Source of the DNA: Rahnella aquatilis CIP 78.65 = ATCC 33071
GTDB taxonomy: Bacteria; Pseudomonadota; Gammaproteobacteria; Enterobacterales; Enterobacteriaceae
Assembly: GCF_000241955.1 (NCBI RefSeq)
Contig: NC_016818.1
Span: 1,116,001-1,180,000, forward strand
Direction of reading: 5' to 3'
DNA length: 64,000 nucleotides
This document shows, one piece after another, positions 26,400 to 33,756 of this stretch. Position numbers and translations under genes: made by a program. Numbering within the stretch: the stretch's first letter is position 1; each line of letters begins with the position of its first letter. The notes below the pieces were generated by a model that saw only the letters and a program-made list of their open reading frames with translations, searched no databases and had not been told where the DNA came from.

Positions 26400-26526
26400 G
26401 GATATCTTCCAACTAGGATGTTAAAGAACGGGAATACGGGAAACGGCGCGCAGTATAGCAGGGGTTCTGAAAATTAACTACCGTTGTGTTAGGCTGTTGT
26501 GATTTTCCGTCTGGCTAAGAGTGCCT

Positions 26527-27264
26527 ATGCTGCCCAATATCCGCATTGTATTAGTAGAAACGTCCCACACTGGCAATATGGGCTCCACCGCCCGCGCCAT
26601 GAAAACCATGGGATTATCAAGTCTTTATCTGGTCAATCCGCTGGTGAAACCTGATTCTCAGGCCATCTCTTTATCTGCCGGTGCCAGCGATGTGATCGGT
26701 AATGCGACTATCGTTGATACGCTCGACGAAGCACTGGCCGGTTGCAGCCTGGTAATCGGCACCAGTGCGCGTTCCCGCACCTTGCCGTGGCCGATGCTGG
26801 AGCCACGTGAATGCGGCGAGTTCAGTGCCAAAGCCGCACAAACCGCGCCGGTGGCGCTGGTGTTTGGCCGCGAACGCGTCGGTCTGACCAATGAAGAACT
26901 GCAAAAATGTAATTATCACGTCTGTATTCCGGCGAACCCTGAATACAGTTCGCTGAATCTGGCGATGGCAGTGCAGATTATTGCCTATGAAGTGCGCGTC
27001 GCACATCTGGCCTTGCTGGAAGCGGCAAAACCACACGTTGAATATGAAGAAACGCCTTATCCGCTGGTCGATGATCTTGAGCGTTTTTATCAGCATCTGG
27101 AAAAAACCTTGCTGGAAACTGGCTTTATTCGTCAGGCGCATCCGGGCCAGGTGATGAGTAAATTACGCCGTCTGTTTACCCGTGCACGACCTGAATCTCA
27201 GGAGTTAAACATCCTGCGCGGTATCCTGACGTCGATTGAAAAGACGCATAGCAACAAAGAATAA
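26527..27264 (+). CDS. trmJ: tRNA (Cm32/Um32) methyltransferase TrmJ
   Basis: SPOUT-class 2'-O-methyltransferase acting on tRNA position 32. [11 protein letters not shown] near the start and the knot region [15 protein letters not shown]...[14 protein letters not shown] are diagnostic. 245 aa. Start MLPNIR aligned with E. coli MLQNIR and preceded by AAGAG; a GTG two codons earlier is the alternative. Upstream of iscR as in E. coli. Confidence 0.96.
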
Positions 27265-27365
27265 GCATCGGAATTTGATTATAAAACACCCGTTTTTGGT
27301 TTTTTATTAAAGGGTTGTCGATTATCAGTAAATGACAGACATCGTGCGGTTCTGCCCGCTCTGTA

Positions 27366-27390
27366 ATACTTGAGTAAATTACTAGGTTAA
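27366..27390 (+). promoter_or_regulatory. IscR type 1 site, distal
   Basis: Fits the 25-base type 1 IscR consensus at about 20 positions (ATACTTGAGTAAATTACTAG at its start). It directly abuts the second site. Confidence 0.65.
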
Positions 27391-27415
27391 ATAGTTGACT
27401 GTTTTACTCGGGAAT
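27391..27415 (+). promoter_or_regulatory. IscR type 1 site, proximal
   Basis: ATAGTTGACTGTTTTACTCG plus five bases fits the type 1 consensus at 23 of 25 positions and covers a TTGACT -35 element. Autorepression of iscR by [2Fe-2S]-IscR is therefore preserved. Confidence 0.8.
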
Positions 27416-27479: not shown

Positions 27480-27974
27480 ATGAGACTGACATCCAAAGGC
27501 CGTTATGCCGTGACCGCTATGCTCGACGTTGCACTGCATTCACAGGAAGGACCAGTACCCCTGGCTGACATTTCTGAGCGCCAGGGTATTTCCCTTTCTT
27601 ACCTGGAACAGCTTTTCTCGCGCTTGCGTAAAAATGGTCTGGTTGCCAGTGTTCGGGGGCCGGGCGGTGGTTATCTGTTAGGTAAAGACGCTGGCGATAT
27701 CGCCGTGGGCGCTGTGATCACAGCCGTTGACGAATCCGTCGATGCGACCCGTTGTCAGGGTAAAGAAGGCTGCCAGAACGGCGAACGTTGCCTGACTCAC
27801 ACCTTATGGCGTGATCTGAGCGAGCGCATCAGCGGCTTCCTGAACAACATTACGCTGGCAGAGCTGGTCAACAATCAGGAAATCCTGGAAGTGGCCGACC
27901 GTCAGAACGGTGAAATCCGTCGTCAGCCGAATGGCCGACAGATGGAAACGATTAATGTGAACTTACGAGCGTAA
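27480..27974 (+). CDS. iscR: Fe-S cluster regulator IscR
   Basis: Rrf2-family regulator holding a [2Fe-2S] cluster; it senses Fe-S demand. Winged helix in residues 1-60; cluster ligands C92, C98, C104 and H107 are all intact. 164 aa. Two abutting type 1 sites lie upstream. Unlike E. coli, its transcript should stop at a strong terminator before iscS, so it is no longer the head of an isc operon. Confidence 0.97.
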
Positions 27975-28003
27975 TTGCTTAGTCAGCATTGATAACTGAT
28001 TTA

Positions 28004-28045
28004 AAAAGCCCGCGGAAATGCAGATTTCCGCGGGCTTTTGCTTTT
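28004..28045 (+). terminator. Strong terminator between iscR and iscS
   Basis: Perfect 16-bp stem AAAAGCCCGCGGAAAT / ATTTCCGCGGGCTTTT with a GCAG loop, then GCTTTT. It separates iscR from iscS, which are co-transcribed in E. coli. Confidence 0.92.
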
Positions 28046-28181
28046 ATGACGTCAATTCTTACCGATTAGTGCCCGCAAAGCGTCATTTCCCTTTTAAGAA
28101 TCTGTGAACCCGTTTTAAACTGGATGTCGTTTTTTAATTCTTTCGTTCGAAACCGAACGCGCAGTCCGGAGCTTACCTGCC

Positions 28182-29351
28182 ATGAAATTACCTGTTTATC
28201 TCGATTACTCTGCCACCACGCCGGTTGATCCGCGTGTTGCACAGAAAATGATGCAGTGTTTAACACTGGACGGTACTTTCGGTAATCCGGCTTCCCGCTC
28301 TCACCGTTTTGGCTGGCAGGCGGAAGAGGCCGTGGATGTGGCGCGTAACCAGATTGCTGAGCTGATTAATGCGGATCCGCGTGAAATTGTCTTCACGTCA
28401 GGTGCCACCGAATCTGACAATCTGGCGATTAAAGGCGCTGCCCATGCACAGCGCGCGAAAGGTAATCATATTATTACCAGTCAGACCGAGCACAAAGCGG
28501 TGCTGGACACCTGTGCGCAGCTGGAAACGGAAGGTTTTGACGTCACCTATCTGGCACCTCAGGCCGACGGTGTTATTCCGCCAGCGGCGATTGAAGCGGC
28601 GCTGCGCCCGGATACCATTCTGGTGTCCATCATGCAGGTGAATAATGAAATTGGCGTGGTACAGGATATTGCGACCATCGGCGAACTGTGCCGCAGTCGG
28701 GGCATCCTTTTCCATGTGGATGCGACGCAAAGCGTAGGGAAAATAGCGATTGATCTCAGTGAATTGCAGGTTGATCTGATGTCGTTTTCCGCGCATAAGA
28801 TTTACGGCCCGAAAGGCATCGGCGCGCTGTACGTGAGTCGCAAACCGAAAGTGCGGATTGACGCGCAAATCCACGGCGGTGGCCACGAACGCGGCATGCG
28901 TTCCGGTACATTGCCGGTGCATCAAATTGTCGGGATGGGCGAGGCGTATCGTATCGCCAAAGAAGAAATGACCGCCGAAGTGGCGCGTCTGACTGAACTG
29001 CGTGATCGTCTGTGGAAAGGCATTCAGGCGCTGGATCAGGTGTTTCTGAACGGCACGCCGCAACATGCGGCACCGAATATTCTCAACGTCAGTTTTGCCA
29101 GTGTAGAAGGCGAATCCCTGATCATGGCACTGAAAGATCTGGCGGTATCGTCAGGTTCGGCTTGTACGTCTGCCAGCCTTGAGCCTTCCTATGTTCTGCG
29201 TGCTCTGGGGTTAAGCGAGGAACTGGCGCACAGCTCCCTTCGCTTCTCGCTGGGGCGCTGGACAACGGAAGAAGAAATTGATTATGCGATTGCGCTGGTG
29301 GTGAAATCTGTCCGCCGCCTGCGTGAGTTGCCACCTGTTTATACGAAATGA
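28182..29351 (+). CDS. iscS: Cysteine desulfurase IscS, short C-terminus
   Basis: PLP enzyme that takes sulfur from cysteine for Fe-S clusters, tRNA thiolation and thiamine. The alignment with E. coli IscS is gap-free to about residue 381: PLP lysine K206 (SFSAHKIYG), persulfide C328 ([14 protein letters not shown]). It then ends at residue 389 with LPPVYTK, 15 residues short of the 404-aa E. coli protein, and the conserved WEMYKQG... tail is missing. That tail is part of the IscU docking region. iscU, iscA, hscBA, fdx and iscX do not follow. An LYEMK-like remnant is present in the -1 frame at 29339, hinting at a frameshift origin. The promoter is its own, since a terminator precedes it. Confidence 0.95.
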
Positions 29352-29432
29352 AGTGCCACCCGATGAAAGGGTGATTTGCCTGTCATTGAAAATGAATATT
29401 CATTGAAGATAAAAAACATCAGGAGTGCTGTT
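29352..29432. other. Site of missing iscUA-hscBA-fdx-iscX
   Basis: Only 81 bases separate iscS from pepB; six genes stand here in E. coli. No recognisable remnant of any of them. It contains a weak CACCC/GGGTG hairpin (29357-29373) and the 14-base palindrome AATGAATATTCATT (29391-29404). Confidence 0.8.
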
Positions 29433-30743
29433 ATGAGTTCCGAAGTCACGACCAATGAAGCAATGTCCGTATTTCTTTCTTCCCAGCCTGCTGATGCGCG
29501 CTGGGGCGAAAAAGCCACACTGAGCACCGATTCCGCCGGTATGACCATTCATTTGAATGGCGGCGATGTGCTGACGGTCATTGCCCGTGCTGCGCGTCGT
29601 ATCGACGGTCAGGGCGTTAAAAATGTTAAACTGGCGGGTGAAGGCTGGGATCTCGAAAACAGCTGGGCATTCTGGCAAGGCTTCCGTGGCCCGAAAGGCA
29701 CACGCAACGTTGAATGGGCAGAATTGTCCGAAGATGACGCAAATACGCTAAAACAACGCCTGAAAATCATCGACTGGGTACGTAATACCATAAATACCCC
29801 GGCGGAAGATTTGTCTCCTGAACAACTTGCCACCCGCGCTGTTGATCTGATGTGTGAATTCGGCAACGAAAAAGTCAGCTACCGCATCACCAAAGGCGAT
29901 GACCTGCGTCAGCAACATTATATGGGTATCCATACTGTCGGCCGTGGTTCTGACCGTCAGCCGGTCTTGCTGGCACTCGATTACAACCCGGGCGGCGACG
30001 CAGATGCACCGGTTTACGCCTGTCTGGTCGGTAAAGGTATCACTTTTGATACCGGCGGCTACAGCCTGAAGCCAAGCGCGTCAATGGATTCCATGAAAGC
30101 GGATATGGGCGGCGCGGCCACCCTGACCGGCGCACTGGCGCTGGCTGCGGCTAACGGTCTGAACAAACGCGTTAAACTTTACCTGTGCTGCGCGGACAAC
30201 ATGGTCAGCGGCAATGCACTGAAACTGGGCGACATTATCCGCTACCGCAACGGTAAAACCGTGGAAGTGATGAATACCGACGCTGAAGGCCGTCTGGTGC
30301 TGGCTGATGGCCTGATCGACGCGTCTGCGCAAAAGCCTGAACTGATCATTGATGCGGCCACGCTGACCGGTGCGGCGAAAACTGCGCTGGGTAACGATTA
30401 TCACGCACTGTTCAGCTTTGACGATGCACTTGCAGGCGAACTGCTGGAAAGCGCGAAAGCCGAACACGAACCGTTCTGGCGTCTGCCGCTGGAAGAGTTC
30501 CACCGCTCTCATCTGCCGTCTAACTTTGCTGAACTGAACAATATTGCCGGTCCGTCACACACTGCGGGAGCGAGTACGGCGGCGGCTTTTCTGTCTCATT
30601 TCGTCACTGACTATAAGAAAGGCTGGCTGCACATCGACTGTTCCGCAACGTACCGCAAAAGCGCGGCAGATCAGTGGTCTGCCGGTGCAACCGGTTTAGG
30701 CGTACGCACCGTCGCCAACCTGCTGTTAGCTAAAGCGAAGTAA
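29433..30743 (+). CDS. pepB: Aminopeptidase B (peptidase B)
   Basis: Cytosolic M17 leucyl-aminopeptidase with two metal ions. Diagnostic [14 protein letters not shown], with metal ligands in [30 protein letters not shown]. 436 aa. AGGAG before the ATG fixes the start; 19 further codons upstream lie in the former isc gap. In E. coli it is the last part of the isc-pepB neighbourhood and is kept here. Confidence 0.95.
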
Positions 30744-30819: not shown

Positions 30820-31683
30820 ATGAGTGTCCCACACGATCATCTCCCCGCTGGCGCGGCGGCGACCGACGGTGAAAACGAGCTGGAGCGCCTGCTTCGTCTG
30901 TCTGTCACCGCACCGGCCTGGCGTCCGGCGTTTTATCAAACCTTGCTGGAGTCCACCGTGTTTGTGCTCGGTGATGCAGGGCAGGATAACGCTGAAAAGC
31001 AGGGCAGTGTGGCGATCACCGCAGGCAGTGAACTGAATATTTTGCACTGGGAAAAGCAGGATGGCAGCTCGATCATTCCTTTCTTTTCCTCTGTGGACGT
31101 TCTGGAAAAAGCCAGTGCCGGCGAAAGCCCGGACGAGCAGGCGTTTGTCGCGCTGCCTGCCCGCGTGTTGTTTGAAATGACGCAAGGCGAAGAATTGTTT
31201 CTGAATCCGAAATCAGAGTACGGCAAGGAATTTTACCCGAGTGAAGTTACGCTGTTGCTGAGCAATGGCGGGCTGAATGTGCCGTCAGAGCTGGTGCTGG
31301 ATAAAGAAAGTCAGTTGCTGATCGGTCAGCCGGAGGAATATCCTTCTGCCATGATCGACGCGCTCACCACGCTGTTTACCCAGAAGAAACCGGTGCGCAG
31401 GGCATTTATGGCGCTTATCCACGATAAAGCGGTGGATGATCAGCCAAACCTGCTGATCGGTGTGGAAGCAGACGGTGATGAGCAGGAAATCGATGCGCTG
31501 ATCCGCGAGGCGGGGAATGTGGCGAGTGAAACCTCTCCCGACGAGCGTCCGGTGGATTTCTGTATCGTTTCTGAAAAAGAGCGCGGTATCAGCCATTATC
31601 TGATCAGCCACACGCAGCCGTTCTATCAGCGCAAGTGGGGAAGCTGGTTGCGCAATATTATTCCTTCGTCCGGTCAGGCATAA
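30820..31683 (+). CDS. sseB: Enhanced serine sensitivity protein SseB
   Basis: Cytoplasmic protein of the SseB family (287 aa); overexpression in E. coli causes serine sensitivity, biochemical role unclear. Conserved ELERLL...PAWRPAFYQTLLESTVFVLG start, WEKQDGSSIIPFFSS, ALPARVLFEMTQGEELFLNPKSEYGKEF. CCGGAG before the ATG. Ends in its own terminator. Confidence 0.93.
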   Translation: MSVPHDHLPAGAAATDGENELERLLRLSVTAPAWRPAFYQTLLESTVFVLGDAGQDNAEKQGSVAITAGSELNILHWEKQDGSSIIPFFSSVDVLEKASAGESPDEQAFVALPARVLFEMTQGEELFLNPKSEYGKEFYPSEVTLLLSNGGLNVPSELVLDKESQLLIGQPEEYPSAMIDALTTLFTQKKPVRRAFMALIHDKAVDDQPNLLIGVEADGDEQEIDALIREAGNVASETSPDERPVDFCIVSEKERGISHYLISHTQPFYQRKWGSWLRNIIPSSGQA

Positions 31684-32433: not shown

Positions 32434-32476
32434 TTGCGCCCCGAATGAGCCAGCCTCTTCGGGGCGCAATTTTATT
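32434..32476 (+). terminator. ndk terminator
   Basis: 12-bp stem TTGCGCCCCGAA/TTCGGGGCGCAA with a 12-base loop followed by TTTTATTT, about 100 bases after ndk. Confidence 0.85.
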
Positions 32477-32556
32477 TGCAGGCCAGCCGTTTCCTGTCAG
32501 GTCAGGTTCTGCACTTCCAATACGCCATAACGTGTAACAACGAGGCCATTTTCATC

Positions 32557-33756
32557 ATGTTAGAATCCAACACGTCCGAGCCAACTTTGTCTGAAAATAA
32601 CGCTGTTTCCGCAGAAGCCGTGAATACTGTCGTGCCTGCTGCCGCAAAAATTAACCTTCTTGATCTTAACCGCAAGCAAATGCGTGAGTTTTTCATCAAC
32701 ATGGGCGAAAAGCCATTCCGTGCTGATCAGGTCATGAAGTGGATGTATCACTACTGCAGCGATGATTTCGAGCAAATGACCGATATCAACAAAGCGCTGC
32801 GTGAAAAGCTGGCCCGCGTTGCCGAAATTCGTGCACCGGAAGTCGCCTCAGAACAACGTTCCACTGACGGCACCATCAAATGGGCGATTCAGGTGGGCGG
32901 ACAACTGGTCGAAACCGTATATATCCCGGACGGCGATCGTGCGACGCTTTGCGTTTCTTCTCAGGTCGGCTGTGCGCTGGAATGTACGTTCTGTTCCACG
33001 GCGCAACAGGGCTTTAACCGTAACCTGCGTGTGTCCGAAATTATCGGTCAGGTATGGCGTGCGGCAAAAATTATCGGCGCGGCGAAAGTGGCCGGTACGC
33101 GCCCTATCACCAACGTGGTGATGATGGGCATGGGCGAACCTTTGCTGAACCTCAATAACGTGGTGCCGGCGATGGAAATCATGCTTGACGATTTCGGTTT
33201 CGGCCTGTCAAAACGTCGCGTGACGCTTTCCACATCGGGCGTGGTCCCTGCGCTGGATAAACTGGGCGATATGATTGATGTCGCGCTGGCGATTTCCCTG
33301 CATGCACCTAACGACGCCATTCGTGACGAAATCGTGCCGATCAACCGCAAGTACAATATTGATACTTTCCTGGCCGCCGTCGAGCGCTATATTGGCAAAT
33401 CCAACGCCAATCAGGGCCGCGTTACCATCGAATACGTTATGCTGGACCACATCAATGATGGCACCGAGCATGCGCATGAACTGGCTGAGCGTCTGAAGAA
33501 TACGCCATGCAAAATCAACCTGATCCCCTGGAACCCGTTCCCGGGCGCGCCGTATGGCCGCAGCTCGAACAGCCGTATCGACCGCTTCTCAAAAGTGCTG
33601 ATGGATTATGGCTTTACGGTGATCGTGCGTAAAACCCGCGGTGATGATATTGATGCCGCGTGCGGGCAACTGGCCGGTGATGTTATCGACCGTACCAAGC
33701 GTACGTTGAAGAAAAAAATGGCAAGCGAGCAGCAGATTTCCGTTAAAGCCGTCTGA
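32557..33756 (+). CDS. rlmN: Dual-specificity 23S rRNA/tRNA methyltransferase RlmN
   Basis: Radical SAM enzyme methylating A2503 of 23S rRNA and A37 of some tRNAs at C2. The radical SAM cluster ligands are C139, C143 and C146 (CALECTFC). The C-terminal [12 protein letters not shown] holds the methyl-carrying cysteine. 399 aa, about 15 residues longer at the N-terminus than E. coli. It needs a [4Fe-4S] cluster, which matters in view of the missing IscU. First gene of the rlmN-pilW-rodZ-ispG series. Confidence 0.96.

Follow-up and report, generated by a model that had tools for sequence, protein, structure and literature searches.

Escherichia coli is the textbook case of iron-sulfur (Fe-S) cluster assembly, with Isc as the housekeeping system and Suf as the emergency system. 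The isc locus in a stretch of 64,000 nucleotides (nt) of the Rahnella aquatilis CIP 78.65 genome (NC_016818.1; the whole stretch is called the window below) holds iscR and iscS and then passes directly into pepB. This arrangement raises the question of how such a bacterium makes Fe-S clusters and what the two remaining genes are kept for. The comparisons presented here indicate that the locus is very probably what remains of an isc operon, its lineage having lost the Isc assembly module and depending on sufABCDSE instead.

A preliminary description of the window had reported an isc operon cut down to iscR and iscS, with pepB 81 bases 3' of iscS, and had interpreted this as local loss and not as a different region. 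All of these points were upheld. The coordinates agree, with iscS ending at 29351 and pepB starting at 29433, and trmJ, iscR, iscS, pepB and sseB are retained in synteny with relatives that carry the full operon. Using E. coli proteins from NC_000913.3 as queries and a tblastn threshold of E<=1e-3, IscU, IscA, HscB, HscA, Fdx and IscX had no match in the 64-kb window, and IscR, IscS and PepB were found there at 78%, 80% and 74% identity, respectively. The canonical operon, with the six other genes 3' of iscS, was present neither at the locus nor anywhere else in the window. Both remaining isc products scored above the NCBIfam equivalog cut-offs (IscR, TIGR02010, 223.5 vs 207.55 bits; IscS, TIGR02006, 687.4 vs 643.2 bits). 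The description's identification of RlmN and IscR as Fe-S proteins encoded in the window was upheld by profiles. Only a 4% match, from Burkholderia, was returned when plasmids were searched with the locus. Features of the locus and its flanks are listed in Table 1.

Table 1. Positions of the isc remnant and its neighbours in the window.
Feature	Position	Strand	Description
trmJ	26521..27264	+	Left flank of the isc locus; adjoins iscR in 80/80 PepB loci
iscR promoter region	27365..27415	+	Tandem pair of elements similar to type-1 sites of IscR: AATACTTGAGTAAATTACTAGGTTA; AATAGTTGACTGTTTTACTCGGGAAT
iscR	27480..27974	+	164 amino acids (aa); Rrf2-type Fe-S regulator; C92, C98, C104 and H107 present
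Hairpin between iscR and iscS	28004..28039	+	Strong, terminator-like; -27.0 kcal/mol; 16 pairs, 8 G-C
Block 5' of iscS	28085..28121	+	Conserved ATTTcCCTTTTAA ... CCGTTTTAAACT; putative iscS promoter or operator
iscS	28182..29351	+	389 aa; end of C-terminal IscU-docking helix and tail gone (E. coli ~384-404 changed or missing)
Junction	29352..29432	+	81 bases; site of iscU-iscA-hscB-hscA-fdx-iscX in isc-containing relatives
pepB	29433..30743	+	Right flank; profile NF003450
sseB	30820..31683	+	Right flank; profile NF008624
rlmN	32476..33756	+	Fe-S (radical SAM) enzyme still needing clusters; profile NF008396

The same junction was found in related genomes. In a PepB search of genome contigs, the best 80 of 158 relatives were examined, and iscS was located 30-406 nt from pepB in 26 of the 80 loci. 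These belonged to nine Rahnella, a group of five around Ewingella (two Ewingella americana records, 'Hafnia psychrotolerans' and two unclassified Enterobacterales), three Rouxiella, two Chimaeribacter, four Erwinia, Pantoea coffeiphila, Erwinia sp. JUb26 and one metagenome-assembled genome (MAG, L083). The record named Hafnia psychrotolerans (L093) clusters with Ewingella in the flank-gene tree described below, as well as by its isc-less junction. The other 54 loci, from Serratia, Mixta, Tatumella, Rosenbergiella, Xenorhabdus, Photorhabdus, Providencia and Vibrio, have an iscS-pepB gap of 3.8-6.7 kb and an IscS of 404 residues. The six E. coli queries missing from the window had no tblastn match in the 26 isc-less loci either, and all six were matched in each of the 24 isc-containing loci among L045-L094. 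The comparison of this junction that had been proposed for Rahnella, Rouxiella, Ewingella and Serratia gave the isc-less arrangement in the first three genera and the full operon in Serratia.

Whole-genome profile searches were carried out on 34 named genomes, 26 isc-less and eight isc-containing, for which no completeness figures are available; full-size genomes of isc-less relatives measure 3.6-5.9 Mb. The source genome of the window brings the isc-less set to 27 for CyaY, IscX, HscB, SufB/SufD and TusA. CyaY, the unlinked frataxin, was matched in 0 of 27 isc-less genomes vs 8 of 8 isc-containing genomes, and the same counts were obtained for IscX and for HscB. The scaffold domain NifU_N was detected in two of the 26 named isc-less genomes vs 8/8 isc-containing ones. 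Both matches (Rahnella sp. AA and Rouxiella aceris; 293 and 297 aa) are of the NifU type, which together with the source genome makes three of 27, and no IscU-type scaffold was matched in the 27. Within the genus of the window, its own genome included, IscU-type matches were found in 0 of 14 genomes and NifU-type matches in two. SufB/SufD were present in 27/27 isc-less vs 5/8 isc-containing genomes, and sufA, B, C, D, S and E were all present in the nine isc-less suf loci examined (the source genome and eight others). TusA was found in every genome of both sets (27/27 and 8/8). A reciprocal loss was seen in Xenorhabdus szentirmaii (L085), Rosenbergiella collisarenosi (L086) and Tatumella sp. 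JGM118 (L087), in which Isc is present and SufB/SufD had no match.

These results, together with an inventory of the source genome (5.45 Mb, four contigs, 100% complete), bear on two other explanations of the gap. The isc genes might have moved elsewhere, or the gap might be an assembly deletion; the earlier reading saw the locus only, and the absence of IscA and Fdx is established in the window and loci, no genome-wide search having been made for either. Profiles for HscB, IscX and CyaY had no match anywhere in the source genome, and its sole NifU_N match is a NifU encoded beside nif genes on a plasmid-sized contig of 115 kb (C2, L206). HSP70 matches occurred in frames of 633, 575, 461 and 353 aa. 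The 633-aa frame, which we take to be DnaK, is 42% identical to E. coli HscA, compared with 75-86% for the HscA proteins of isc-containing relatives, and the 461-aa and 353-aa frames are presumably YegD and MreB by their size. The 575-aa frame was ruled out as HscA, being 42% identical to HscC vs 37% to HscA; this HscC-like protein is encoded on a second plasmid-sized contig (C3, L207, 464 kb). Judged by these identities, the HSP70 set of the genome contains no HscA. The genome-wide absence that the preliminary description had called for was thus found for iscU (none of IscU type), hscB and hscA, and iscU-hscBA-fdx did not turn up elsewhere, with fdx looked for only in the window and loci. Because 26 further assemblies have a junction of this kind, an assembly deletion is excluded. 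Within the limits of the assemblies, displacement is refuted for HscB, IscX and the scaffold, and the probability left to either form of this explanation is negligible. A plasmid-borne NIF system could instead have replaced Isc as the general assembly machine. The preliminary description had named nifU/nifS beside suf, and both are indeed carried by contig C2, where NifU holds an IscU-like domain 48% identical to E. coli IscU. These genes lie amid nifV, nifN and nifE, which are nitrogenase-specific, and 24 of the 27 isc-less genomes do without a NifU-type protein, making a general replacement by NIF very improbable. The complete set of SufA, B, C, D, S and E, which had also been expected, is encoded in one locus (C1:3.04 Mb). 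The absence of an IscU-type scaffold and of HscB and the presence of Suf support the earlier suggestion that Suf has taken over, with cluster assembly by SufBCD, SufS and SufE as the predicted activity.

The joint absence of IscU and frataxin was also followed in 146 relatives from 113 genera, the source genome among them. IscU was counted as a match with a frame of 126-170 aa, so that five genomes with NifU only, as well as G104 with its weak match, were scored as without. Both IscU and CyaY were found in 91 genomes, neither in 45, IscU only in nine and CyaY only in one. The 45 genomes without both range from 0.5 Mb up to full size, seven of the nine IscU-only genomes are <=1.0 Mb, with exceptions of 3.0 Mb (G124) and 5.4 Mb (G035), and the CyaY-only genome is 49% complete, with a split IscU. 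Frataxin has been reported to tend to accompany HscBA (Huynen 2001, as cited in PMC4440780), and the citing article emphasises that iscU in the absence of cyaY is found in many genomes. The full-size G035, with IscU and without a CyaY match, runs contrary to the usual co-occurrence.

The number of losses was estimated from a tree of six flank proteins with 54 rows: the 27 isc-less rows, 24 isc-containing Enterobacterales, E. coli and two of the 30 Vibrio loci. Ndk is missing in 21 rows, RlmN in 24 and SseB in two, and all of the genes neighbour the isc locus, so that the tree is one of this region and not of whole genomes. As drawn it needs four state changes, two of which are forced by well-supported branches. 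A single loss, with all isc-less rows in one clade, was rejected (approximately unbiased test, p-AU 3.4e-6). One loss for Rahnella, Ewingella and Rouxiella together with Chimaeribacter was not rejected (p-AU 0.27), and one loss for the Erwinia group together with MAG L083 was weakly rejected (p-AU 0.029). By this tree the losses number at least two and are probably three, with four on the topology as drawn. Since isc occupies this position in the outgroups as well, loss is likelier than repeated gain.

If Isc has been dismantled, the IscS left behind may be expected to show which of its partners still matter. It was compared with a reference set of 55 isc-containing rows (54 loci and E. coli), in which 232 of 404 positions are invariant. 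Within the tail (379-404), nine of 13 invariant sites are changed in at least three of six isc-less lineages vs 12 of 219 elsewhere (Fisher p 3.8e-8, a value that overstates independence, as the six labelled lineages do not represent as many independent events). L386, M389, E400 and W401 are changed or missing in 27/27 isc-less rows. The IscS of the window stops at about E. coli position 389 and does not have the complete docking helix and tail. Elsewhere the protein ends in ELPPVYTK (most Rahnella), LPPVFSS (Ewingella), ELSNANH or ELSHANH (Rouxiella) or LSGAA (Chimaeribacter); the Erwinia group has a 399-residue ending, and MAG L083 encodes a full-length, 404-residue IscS with a degenerate tail. 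Published work places the IscU contacts at 309-316, 347 and helix 379-391 and reports that IscS(delta376-404) fails to bind IscU (PMC2854127). No isc-less lineage retains an intact IscU-docking C-terminus, which is either gone or degenerate. At IscU-contact sites outside the tail, E309 is replaced by D in four lineages and E347 is changed in the MAG, the rest being unchanged.

Outside the tail, the sites changed in at least three lineages are F89, Y90, K92, K95, K101, R112, R116, K196, E227, E285, E309 and D346. K92 and R112 are altered in all six lineages (R112 remains in three of 27 rows), K101 in five and R116 in four. R112 is, we presume, part of the ferredoxin/frataxin site. CyaY/IscX binding depends on R116, R220, R223 and R225 among others (PMC2854127), and a second IscX site near K101 has been located by cross-linking (PMC5801593). 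TusA binding needs W45, E49 and D52 (PMC2854127). These three residues, as well as R55, D65, R220, R237 and the catalytic C328, are kept in 27/27 isc-less IscS proteins, and the loop around C328 (323-336) has no majority change in Rahnella. The erosion of IscS is in this sense partner-specific. IscR serves as an internal control for this erosion by its conservation: of 106 sites invariant in 25 isc-containing Enterobacterales, one is changed in at least two isc-less lineages, and the cluster ligands C92, C98, C104 and H107 are intact in 27/27.

Two further explanations concern IscS itself. Its tail could have gone in the same deletion as iscU-iscX, without any later relaxation of selection. 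In favour of this, divergence sets in near E. coli 383-386 in Rahnella, Ewingella, Rouxiella and Chimaeribacter alike, with pepB 30-193 nt further on; the full-length IscS of MAG L083, with its degenerate tail, and the substitution of K92 and R112, outside the tail, in all six lineages speak for decay instead. A common deletion is possible but less likely than decay. Alternatively, IscS could still feed Fe-S assembly by passing sulfur to Suf, beyond a role as donor for tRNA and molybdopterin. IscS is present in all 27 isc-less genomes, and the IscS of Mycobacterium tuberculosis is reported to contribute to Fe-S enzyme activities beside Suf (PMC10848736). A continued supply to Suf appears unlikely here, as SufS and SufE are encoded in the nine isc-less loci examined and the kept residues fit the TusA face while the IscU tail has decayed. 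The reading in which Suf makes the clusters would instead have IscS as a dedicated sulfur donor for TusA-dependent tRNA 2-thiolation, and likely also for ThiI and molybdopterin. Selection on such a donor would keep the active site and the TusA face, and would be relaxed on the IscU tail and on part of the ferredoxin/frataxin groove, which could then decay.

Regulatory sequences were compared in 18 isc-less rows (of the 27) and nine isc-containing rows that were displayed. Elements like the sites of the iscR promoter, for which we assume the label 'type 1', occur in all of these and in E. coli, and IscR-like sites are kept both at iscR and before sufA. The iscR-iscS spacer is 37-127 nt in the nine isc-containing loci, one of which has a weak hairpin; 12 of the 18 isc-less rows have a strong hairpin of -18.5 to -27.4 kcal/mol with a T-rich stretch after it. 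The hairpin sequences of Rahnella, Ewingella and Erwinia are unrelated to each other, and two Rouxiella have weaker hairpins. Downstream of this element, a block (CCTTTTAA...CCGTTTTAAACT) 5' of iscS is kept in 18/18 Rahnella, Ewingella and Rouxiella rows and occurs once in the window, where 0.37 occurrences would be expected by chance if one mismatch is allowed. No promoter was called before iscS in a sigma-70 scan, and the block is therefore only a putative promoter. It has two TTTTAA repeats and may be a lineage-specific promoter or operator. Before sufA, no 19-base stretch scored above 14 of 19 as a Fur box in any of nine isc-less promoters (two reach 14 at this position), compared with 15-16 in E. 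coli and three Serratia; the adjoining IscR-like site is retained in the isc-less promoters (L192-L197, L201-L203). A lost Fur box as the hallmark of a housekeeping Suf is suggestive at most, given the small margin and the score of 12 in isc-containing Mixta and Providencia.

The retained sites suggest how a Suf-only cell could be controlled. IscR, itself presumably matured by Suf, would tune suf to cluster demand through its cluster ligands and the sites at iscR and sufA. Basal suf expression is reported to be low in E. coli cells with Suf as their sole system, and to require activation by IscR (PMC9973013), which would explain the retention of iscR. A Suf-only cell would tend toward more apo-IscR and a derepressed iscR promoter. 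Where the hairpin intervenes, IscS is probably transcribed separately from iscR, and a terminator in this position would keep the derepression from overproducing IscS.

On balance, the comparisons favour a broader view, in which Enterobacterales with full-size genomes repeatedly dismantled Isc and arrived at the same end state: IscR and an IscS whose IscU tail no longer works, no frataxin, and Suf as the housekeeping system under IscR, with iscS in several lineages set apart by a terminator and possibly served by a promoter of its own. The residues decayed in parallel, in the tail and within 89-116 (for instance K92, K101, R112 and R116), would then map the docking of IscU and of ferredoxin/frataxin/IscX on an IscS specialised as a tRNA-thiolation desulfurase. 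Several observations weigh against the underlying interpretation of the locus as an isc remnant in a Suf-dependent lineage, beside the non-independence of the lineage labels. The MAG keeps F89, K101 and R116, and part of the Erwinia group keeps F89 and R116. R220, R223 and R225, which also belong to the CyaY/IscX site, are kept or mildly changed (R223K in Rahnella, Ewingella and two Erwinia-group rows; R225Y in the MAG); sharing of these residues by TusA/ThiI may explain their retention. No terminator was found by scan in two Chimaeribacter, Pantoea coffeiphila and the MAG, and a weaker Fur box at sufA is unspecific, being shared with isc-containing Mixta and Providencia.

Relatives of E. coli whose genomes are of full size (3.6-5.9 Mb) and in one case include nif genes appear to live on Suf alone. 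A full-text literature search, which included the Rahnella genome papers PMC10946135 and PMC9015054, returned no report of an absence of Isc from Rahnella, Ewingella, Rouxiella, Chimaeribacter or Erwinia, as far as the texts returned extend; supplementary tables of surveys may list the pattern. Such natural isc-less bacteria, frataxin being missing in all 27 examined, allow it to be asked what frataxin is for, how one hub enzyme is partitioned between its partners, and how a stress operon turns housekeeping under an unchanged regulator.

Dependence on one system is not unusual in itself. According to phylogenomic work cited in PMC11559095, most bacteria have a single assembly system, which is SUF in the majority of cases, and the isc-less lineages resemble them in having Suf as the sole general system; they differ in that whole enterobacterial genera are without Isc, while sampled Xenorhabdus, Rosenbergiella and Tatumella are without SufB/SufD. 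The locus shares with the E. coli iscRSUA-hscBA-fdx-iscX operon its position between trmJ and pepB-sseB, its orthologous iscR and iscS, and similar IscR-like sites at iscR and sufA. It differs in that the six downstream genes are gone, IscS is short and without the IscU tail, cyaY is absent, and a strong terminator-like hairpin parts iscR from iscS in most rows shown. A Suf-only state with an orphan iscS is already known from M. tuberculosis, which is described as having a truncated ISC (a single iscS) beside a full SUF as its main assembly system (PMC10848736). In the isc-less enterobacteria, iscS still stands at its ancestral place in conserved synteny and beside its regulator gene iscR. As the full operon is present in relatives from the same families, the loss is comparatively recent.

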